Source of the DNA: Brachyspira pilosicoli P43/6/78
GTDB taxonomy: Bacteria; Spirochaetota; Brachyspiria; Brachyspirales; Brachyspiraceae
Assembly: GCF_000325665.1 (NCBI RefSeq)
Contig: NC_019908.1
Span: forward strand, 1,426,001-1,490,000
Direction: 5' to 3'
DNA: 64,000 nt
A program made the position numbers and the translations under genes. The notes beneath the pieces are model-generated. The model saw nothing but the letters and a program-made list of their open reading frames with translations, ran no database searches and had not been told where the DNA came from. Position 1 is the first letter of the stretch. Every line of letters starts with the position of its first letter. Positions 22,186 through 23,692 of this stretch are shown here, piece by piece.

Positions 22186-23544
22186 TTATACTTTTGATAA
22201 ATACTTGTTTTCTGTTTCATCAGCAAGTCTGTATATTTTCTCTTCATCTATAGTAACAATTTTGCCTTTTTCAACAACAACTTTTCCATTAACTATAGTA
22301 TAATCCACACTTCCTTTCCAGCCTATAGTACCAAATAAAGATTTAGCATCAAAGTTAGCACCAACCATTTCTAATCTTCTCATATCTATCATAAATAAAT
22401 CAGCAGCCTTACCAACTTCCAAACTTCCTATATCATCACGTCCTAAAACTTTAGCTCCTCCATTAGTAGCAATTTTTAATATATCATAAGCACTAGGAGC
22501 TTTATCACTTGAATTAAGCCTATGAAGCAAATAACAAACCCTCATCTCTTCAAGCAAACTAGAACCGTCATTACTAGCACTTCCATCAACAGCAAGTCCA
22601 ACAGGCACGCCTAGCTTAAGCATTTCAGGTATTTTGCAAACTCCAGAACTTAACTTCATGTTTGATATAGGGCAGTGTGCTACTCCTGTTTTTGTATCAG
22701 CCAAATATTTTAGCTCTTCATCATTAAAGTGAATGCCATGTGCATACCATACATCTTCACCAACCCAGCCCAATGTTTCCATATATTCTAAAGGACGCAT
22801 ATTAAACTTTTCTCTTACAAATACTTCTTCATCTTTAGTTTCGCATAGATGTGTATGAAGTCTTACTTTTAAATCTCTTGCCAAAACTGCAGATTGTTTC
22901 ATTAATTCACCCGTTACATTAAAAGGAGCACAAGGAGCCAATGCAACCATACTCATAGAATATTTTGAAGGGTCATGATATTTTTTTACCACTCTCTCAC
23001 AATCTTTTAAAATTTCGTCTAATGACTGAACAACAGAATCTGGAGGAAGTCCGCCGTCTTTTTTGCTTAAATCCATACTTCCCCTTGAAGCGTACATTCT
23101 TATCCCTAAATCTTTAGCTGCTCTAAATTGAGAATCCAACAACATTTCTGAGTTTTTTTGCGGAAACAAATAATGATGGTCAAAGCAAGTAGTACAGCCT
23201 GTTTTTAATAATTCTCCCATTGCAGTCATAGAACTATAATAAACAACATCATGATTTAAATTCTTCCATATTTCATAGAGATTAGTAAGCCATTCAAATA
23301 ATTCCATATTCTGTACTTGAGGAAGGTTTCTTGTAAATATTTGAAATAAATGATGATGAGTGTTAATGAGTCCAGGATATACAAAACAGCCTGAAGCATC
23401 AATTACTCTATCAGCATTTTTTTCTTCTTTGCCAATATAGGTTATAACTCCATTTTCTATTAAAATATTACTATTATTATGAACTCTATCATTATTATCA
23501 CATGTAACTATTGAAGAAGCATTTTTTATAAATAGACTTGACAT
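22186..23544 (-). CDS. Amidohydrolase, probable 8-oxoguanine/guanine-type deaminase
   Basis: I start at the ATG at 23544, which has an excellent AGGGGTGAT ribosome site; 452 residues. The amidohydrolase metal site is visible: HxH in NTHHHLF, then HLCET, HGIHFND and the Asp in SASNDGSS. RGSMDLSKKDGGLPPD is characteristic of the 8-oxoguanine deaminase / hydroxyatrazine hydrolase branch of COG0402. Such enzymes hydrolyse an exocyclic amine from a purine or triazine ring. A guanine-type purine riboswitch in its leader makes a guanine-related substrate most likely. The gene is monocistronic. Confidence 0.85.
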   Translation of the reverse strand: MSSLFIKNASSIVTCDNNDRVHNNSNILIENGVITYIGKEEKNADRVIDASGCFVYPGLINTHHHLFQIFTRNLPQVQNMELFEWLTNLYEIWKNLNHDVVYYSSMTAMGELLKTGCTTCFDHHYLFPQKNSEMLLDSQFRAAKDLGIRMYASRGSMDLSKKDGGLPPDSVVQSLDEILKDCERVVKKYHDPSKYSMSMVALAPCAPFNVTGELMKQSAVLARDLKVRLHTHLCETKDEEVFVREKFNMRPLEYMETLGWVGEDVWYAHGIHFNDEELKYLADTKTGVAHCPISNMKLSSGVCKIPEMLKLGVPVGLAVDGSASNDGSSLLEEMRVCYLLHRLNSSDKAPSAYDILKIATNGGAKVLGRDDIGSLEVGKAADLFMIDMRRLEMVGANFDAKSLFGTIGWKGSVDYTIVNGKVVVEKGKIVTIDEEKIYRLADETENKYLSKV

Positions 23545-23579
23545 ATAAATCACCCCTTTAATTAAAATAAGGCACAAAA

Positions 23580-23641
23580 CTTATAGTCAATTATTTAGGT
23601 AATTGGTAGAAACGTTCAGCCGTATTATGAACTTATATAAG
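23580..23641 (-). promoter_or_regulatory. Purine riboswitch, guanine-type aptamer
   Basis: On the minus strand: P1 CTTATA/TATAAG (23636-23641 with 23580-23585), P2 GTTCA/TGAAC with an ACGG-containing loop, the invariant joining sequence GTTTCTACC, P3 CAATT/AATTG with an ACCTAAAT loop, then GACTA leading into P1. The L2 GG and L3 CC can form the loop-loop contact. The specificity base in the J3/1 segment is C (GACTA), as in guanine/hypoxanthine aptamers; adenine types have U. It lies 35 bases upstream of the deaminase ATG. Confidence 0.9.
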
Positions 23642-23664
23642 CATAAATATTTTGCCCATATATA

Positions 23665-23692
23665 AGTATAGTGCTTTTTTACCCTATGTCAA
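23665..23692 (-). promoter_or_regulatory. Sigma-70-like promoter of the riboswitch-deaminase transcript
   Basis: Minus-strand TTGACA (23687-23692) and TATACT (23665-23670) with a 16-base spacer. The start of transcription would fall about 15-20 bases before the aptamer. Confidence 0.75.

Follow-up and report, generated by a model that had tools for sequence, protein, structure and literature searches.

The window analyzed here (64,000 nucleotides of Brachyspira pilosicoli P43/6/78) encodes on its minus strand an amidohydrolase of 452 amino acids (22186..23544, with the ATG at 23544-23542 and the end of the open reading frame at 22186). It scores 586.1 bits against the 8-oxoguanine deaminase family NF006055, for which the curated cut-off is 532, and the initial annotation was thus right to place the gene in the 8-oxoguanine/guanine deaminase branch. 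The protein shares 97 % identity with a Brachyspira pilosicoli record; its closest solved structures are 3hpa and 7ww2, and the 'RGSM..DGGLPPD' and metal-site motifs are largely common. In the enzymes of this family assayed so far, guanine deamination is slow to moderate at most, which weighs against the reading favored below, and modified guanines are substrates as well (PMC13054789). A sigma-70-type promoter, TTGACA-16-TATACT, with 11 of 12 consensus letters, lies upstream on the same strand (23665..23692), ahead of a purine aptamer as had first been noticed, and it is kept at similar spacing in other Brachyspira leaders. Judging from the letters, the transcript probably starts near 23657 (GGGCA).

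The aptamer is matched by the Rfam covariance model RF00167 at 23660-23564 of the minus strand, 20 nt from the deaminase start, with 57.5 bits for a cut-off of 37 (E 2.8e-7, computed over 64 kb and 4227 families). This is the single match of the model in the genome of 2,555,556 bases. The aptamer extends from P1 (CUUAUA/UAUAAG) to P3 over 23580..23641 on the minus strand, and includes the J2/3 segment GTTTCTACC (RNA GUUUCUACC) at 23613-23605, the L3 loop CCUAAA at 23599-23594 and the specificity base C74 at 23586. The pocket residues U22, U47, U51 and C74 are present together with J2/3 GUUUCUACC, as are the kissing-loop letters, GG in L2 (AAUACGG) and CC in L3 (CCUAAA). Pocket, J2/3 and loop letters are invariant in an alignment of 11 distinct Brachyspira leaders (11/11 for pocket and J2/3), which does not include the locus L019 described below. 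The aptamer is real and of guanine-I type by its pocket, in line with the guanine-class aptamer initially proposed in front of this gene.

Comparison with the other purine classes leads to the same assignment. Position 74 is C in the window (23586), where an adenine riboswitch requires U. The xanthine-II and guanine-II classes are defined by insertions in J2-3 and J3-1, with U51G for xanthine-II (PMC9295807), whereas J2/3 and J3/1 have their canonical length in the window aptamer and U51 is kept. The likeness to guanine-II lies in the guanine ligand, predicted here, and in the ON direction predicted for that class in Paenibacillus; its J2-3 and J3-1 insertions are absent from the window aptamer (PMC9295807). 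With the guanine-I riboswitches of the xpt type, the three-way junction, GUUUCUACC, GACUA with C74 and the GG/CC loop-loop letters are shared. These guanine-I switches have been described as turning down genes for synthesis, salvage or uptake (PMC9295807), and the window aptamer differs from them by its predicted ON direction, the catabolic deaminase downstream and a short L3 of 6 nt. A G25-C45 pair was considered as a signature of deaminase-linked aptamers and then dropped, as 25/45 varies widely among other purine aptamers.

Seventeen of 26 Brachyspira genomes carry an ortholog of the deaminase (84-100 %), and the aptamer is found in 16 of these 17. All genus aptamers (n = 17) stand immediately 5' of the deaminase start. 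In one genome (G011, locus L013), an insertion element interrupts the deaminase some ten codons into the gene, and the riboswitch now fronts a transposase; in another (G021), the deaminase has been kept and the aptamer is absent. In two genomes of the sister genus, the aptamer precedes purE instead. A second, SsnA-like amidohydrolase is encoded in 17/17 deaminase-bearing genomes versus 2/9 of those lacking the deaminase (Fisher p 5e-5, a statistic that ignores kinship). Purine aptamers with G73 (UGCUA, AGCUA) are observed in other Spirochaetota (L062, L064, L065), some of them in many genomes of one family.

Structural predictions for the leaders give insights into the possible mode of control. 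In the ligand-free minimum free energy structure of most of the 12 folded leaders, AUAAG of the P1 3' strand pairs with CUUAU, and UAAUUGA (P3, J3/1) pairs with UUAAUUA. This sequestor, CUUAU plus UUAAUUA, lies at 23559..23571 of the minus strand in the window. The CTTAT complement of P1 noted initially does exist, but at 23571-23567 rather than 23563-23567. In the same structure, the P3/L3 segment ACCU(C) pairs with the Shine-Dalgarno (SD) sequence. The SD region of the window, AAAGGGGUGA(UU), occupies 23548..23559 on the minus strand, and there GGGUGAUU is paired with AAUUACCU; the probability of the pair between the L3 C and the SD reaches 0.98 in the ligand-free ensemble. When the aptamer is made to form, opening the SD costs 1.8 instead of 5.9 kcal/mol in the window, and this opening becomes cheaper in 11/11 leaders computed, with folding energies that leave out the kissing loop, the ligand and co-transcriptional folding.

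Another helix, P0, joins GGGCA at the predicted mRNA 5' end (23653..23657, minus strand) to UGCCU (23574-23570, that is, 23570..23574 of the minus strand), the latter overlapping the CCUU of the initial annotation. Its probability in the window is 0.81 in the bound state and about 0 in the free state, the corresponding values across leaders being 0.36-0.99 and at most 0.11. P0 has the form (A/G)GGCA:UGCCU, with both strands present in 10/11 distinct leaders and both missing in L014. In shuffle controls, the sequestor energy was reached by 1-7 of 300 shuffles in five of the eight leaders tested. The window's own sequestor beats its dinucleotide shuffles only modestly, 40/300 reaching its energy and 14/300 when the SD is kept; those of L013, where the gene is broken, and L014 are no better than shuffles. 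Compensatory double changes were found for neither the ON nor the OFF folds within Brachyspira, because the leaders are too alike.

The SD is thus hidden in the ligand-free fold and easier to open once the aptamer forms, while in the bound state the CCUU is engaged in P0 and its pairing with the SD is weak in the window. The predicted direction is therefore ON, and the ligand probably turns on translation of the Brachyspira deaminase, as far as the folding model goes. As long as no ligand is bound, L3, P3, J3/1 and the P1 3' strand, which make up the 3' half of the aptamer, would pair with CUUAUUUUAAUUA and the SD, and this pairing would hide the ribosome site. Upon guanine binding, the aptamer would form, P0 would join the mRNA 5' end to UGCCU, and the SD would be released. 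Such an organization recalls two adenine riboswitches, the translational ON switch add of Vibrio vulnificus and the transcriptional ON switch pbuE of Bacillus subtilis, in which the 3' strands of the ligand-free aptamer are engaged by the SD or by a terminator; the add switch, too, stands before a deaminase gene. Unlike both, the window has C74 in place of U74 and another gene family, and its L3 is itself complementary to the SD.

The opposite direction was initially proposed: P1 formation would free the CCUU (23572-23569), which would pair with the SD, so that the ligand would repress translation. The CCUU and the SD complement are indeed both present, and a GCC:SD pairing makes up 0.51-0.63 of the bound ensemble in L004, L006, L007, L011 and L012. 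Pairing of this segment with the SD in the bound state is a competitor, not absent, in several species (up to 0.63). It is however limited to 0.13 in the window leader and to 0.01-0.07 in L015-L018, the bound-state P0 consumes the CCUU, and the anti-P1 state, which was expected to free the SD, hides it through L3 and P3. Repression had also seemed odd for a catabolic enzyme; this oddity is gone, since the Clostridial homologues described below are ON by architecture, which further argues against repression. We thus hold it to be quite improbable. A switch still ON but acting on transcription, by means of the weak AUAAG/CUUAU hairpin followed by UUUU, would have in its favor this U-rich tract and the termination mode of the Clostridial homologues; it looks very improbable nonetheless, as the stem has only five A/U-rich pairs and a search of the window for a transcription terminator returned no terminator-like site. 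Translational activation remains the preferred reading.

A homologue scan over 84,980 genomes yielded 80 loci. In 11 Clostridial loci, the aptamer, as recognized with Rfam, directly precedes the deaminase. The leaders contain terminators of -37 to -52 kcal/mol, with a 3' arm complementary to P3/L3 and a 5' arm made of P3/L3/J3-1/P1, so that J3/1 and the P1 3' strand become part of the hairpin. Aptamer and terminator are mutually exclusive, and the ligand should therefore turn Clostridial transcription ON. Nine distinct arm pairs are available, in which two positions are changed on both sides (8 double-changed cells) and one L3 position displays all four Watson-Crick types. The covariation score, obtained on arms excised and joined by hand, was reached by 0/500 shuffles. 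Three switches of this kind occur in Eubacterium barkeri, where they precede an 8-oxoguanine deaminase, a guanine deaminase (TIGR02967, 351 bits, just below the cut-off of 375) and a subunit of xanthine dehydrogenase (XDH). A tblastn search on plasmids had no Bacilli among its best matches.

Some neighboring aptamers are of note in their own right. In L154 and L157 (G393, G394), aptamers changed at position 73 (A73U, A73C) stand before canonical guanine deaminases, with terminators overlapping P3, and the 8-oxoguanine deaminase aptamer of those genomes keeps A73. In L149 and L155 (G394, G397), a purine aptamer precedes an AzgA-like permease; the terminator seems to overlap J3/1 and P1, which would be ON by architecture.

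The history of the gene and its switch can be traced in a tree of 63 deaminases. All aptamer-bearing rows (22/22) fall in a single clade of 27 rows, with a support of 99/97 for which the bootstrap is not fully settled, and none is found elsewhere; the five other members of this clade have no aptamer-like leader. Brachyspira forms one branch inside the aptamer-bearing clade, among Clostridia. The deaminase of G028, from the same family as Brachyspira, groups with Fusobacteriaceae, and an AU test rejects the union of the Brachyspira and G028 deaminases (p 1.9e-39). The nesting of Brachyspira in the aptamer-bearing Clostridial clade implies that gene and switch moved together and that the terminator was replaced as the means of control. 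The simplest reading of these sequences would be one Clostridial origin of the pair, followed by its transfer to Brachyspira, where SD sequestration superseded the terminator. The independent deaminase of G028 (L037), which belongs to a related genus, lies, with no aptamer, directly behind an apparent NCS2 xanthine/uracil permease.

The nature of the ligand deserves a separate discussion. A class of 8-oxoguanine riboswitches, the subject of a 2023 PNAS report, is said to be confined to Paenibacillaceae and always to precede an 8-oxoguanine deaminase. Such an 8-oxoguanine-sensing variant of the purine aptamer scaffold is on record (PMC9295807, PMC9971707). The family of G773 appears to be Paenibacillaceae from its DnaA and GyrB sequences, and its 297 genomes contain 25 deaminases, six with aptamer. 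In these Paenibacillaceae aptamers (L210, L213, L216, L217, L220 and L224 were compared with the window), J2/3 is G-CUCUAC, one base shorter with U47 lost and C48, and J3/1 has A72; they are presumably the published 8-oxoguanine riboswitch. The window shares with this riboswitch its position directly upstream of an 8-oxoguanine deaminase and an ON-type platform overlapping P3, but its J2/3 is the complete guanine-I one and position 72 is G. The shortened J2/3 (U47 deleted, C48) is absent from the window, and was seen in the genus only in L019 of G013. In the window, as in every Clostridial deaminase aptamer, the guanine-I J2/3 frame and GACUA are preserved, and variation is confined to position 48. 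Given these features, and the lack of the Paenibacillaceae pocket, guanine would therefore be the likeliest ligand. The initial suggestion that the ligand may be the enzyme's own substrate is supported to the extent that regulation by a likely substrate emerges here.

Could the aptamer nevertheless be a sensor of 8-oxoguanine, or of some other modified guanine (N2,N2-dimethylguanine, for example), in spite of its guanine-I-like pocket? The name of the NF006055 family, 8-oxoguanine deaminase, the existence of an 8-oxoguanine-sensing variant on the same scaffold (PMC9295807) and the acceptance of modified guanines by enzymes of the family (PMC13054789) would all be consistent with it. However, neither the U47 deletion nor the C48 of the Paenibacillaceae deaminase aptamers is present in the window, and a guanine-I-like pocket also fronts the guanine deaminase and XDH genes of E. 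barkeri, which makes this possibility unlikely.

Guanine as the ligand also agrees with the purine-degradation physiology of the organism. At about 2.408-2.428 Mb, its genome encodes a selenium-dependent XDH, YgfK, SsnA, diaminopropionate ammonia-lyase, YgeW, a further XDH and an NCS2 permease. A complete-looking anaerobic uric acid/purine degradation cluster extends over about 2.408-2.430 Mb (L160 4798-17367 and L161 1497-9605); it includes a carbamate kinase recognized by eye, and its gene content is that of the uricolytic set described in PMC12507026. A search for another guanine deaminase in the genome found no protein above the family cut-off. The deaminase would yield xanthine, which could feed this cluster.

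We consider it rather likely, on the whole, that this cis-acting guanine-I-type riboswitch is a translational ON switch for a guanine/8-oxoguanine deaminase, and that the pair was acquired from Clostridia with replacement of the terminator. The aptamer, the gene family, the conserved synteny, the covariation of the Clostridial terminators, the nesting in the gene tree and the differing Paenibacillaceae pocket come directly from the computations, whereas the ligand, the ON direction in Brachyspira, the substrate of the enzyme and the direction of transfer are predictions. What is predicted is a new use of a guanine-I-type aptamer, in the ON direction and before a catabolic deaminase, moved with its gene and with its platform converted. 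If this holds, guanine-I aptamers would, besides braking purine synthesis, serve gut anaerobes as substrate-induced activators of guanine breakdown. It would also provide a traceable riboswitch move between phyla together with a gene, in which the platform went from terminator to ribosome-site sequestration with the direction kept.

One Brachyspira genome, G013, has tandem deaminase genes and two aptamers, the second copy having the guanine-I pocket. In the first copy (L019, G013:C1:1103289-1103386), J2/3 is GCUCUACC where the aptamer of G014 has GUUUCUACC. L019 was initially regarded as a broken core, and was reinterpreted after comparison with the Paenibacillaceae sequences, since GCUCUACC is exactly the J2/3 motif of their deaminase aptamers. 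The change may possibly reflect decay, but it coincides with that motif and leaves the remaining aptamer intact. A more tentative proposal, to which we give somewhat less than even weight, is that about two nucleotide changes shifted the ligand from guanine to 8-oxoguanine, independently of the Paenibacillaceae, and that the sensor was duplicated along with its enzyme. L019 and L014 (G014) have another platform, UUUUUAUAUCAUCAUAAAAA, which lacks both P0 and the L3:SD sequestor. Over the aptamer, the two are identical letter for letter, J2/3 excepted, and they thus form a near-perfect natural pair for the role of J2/3 in guanine versus 8-oxoguanine specificity.
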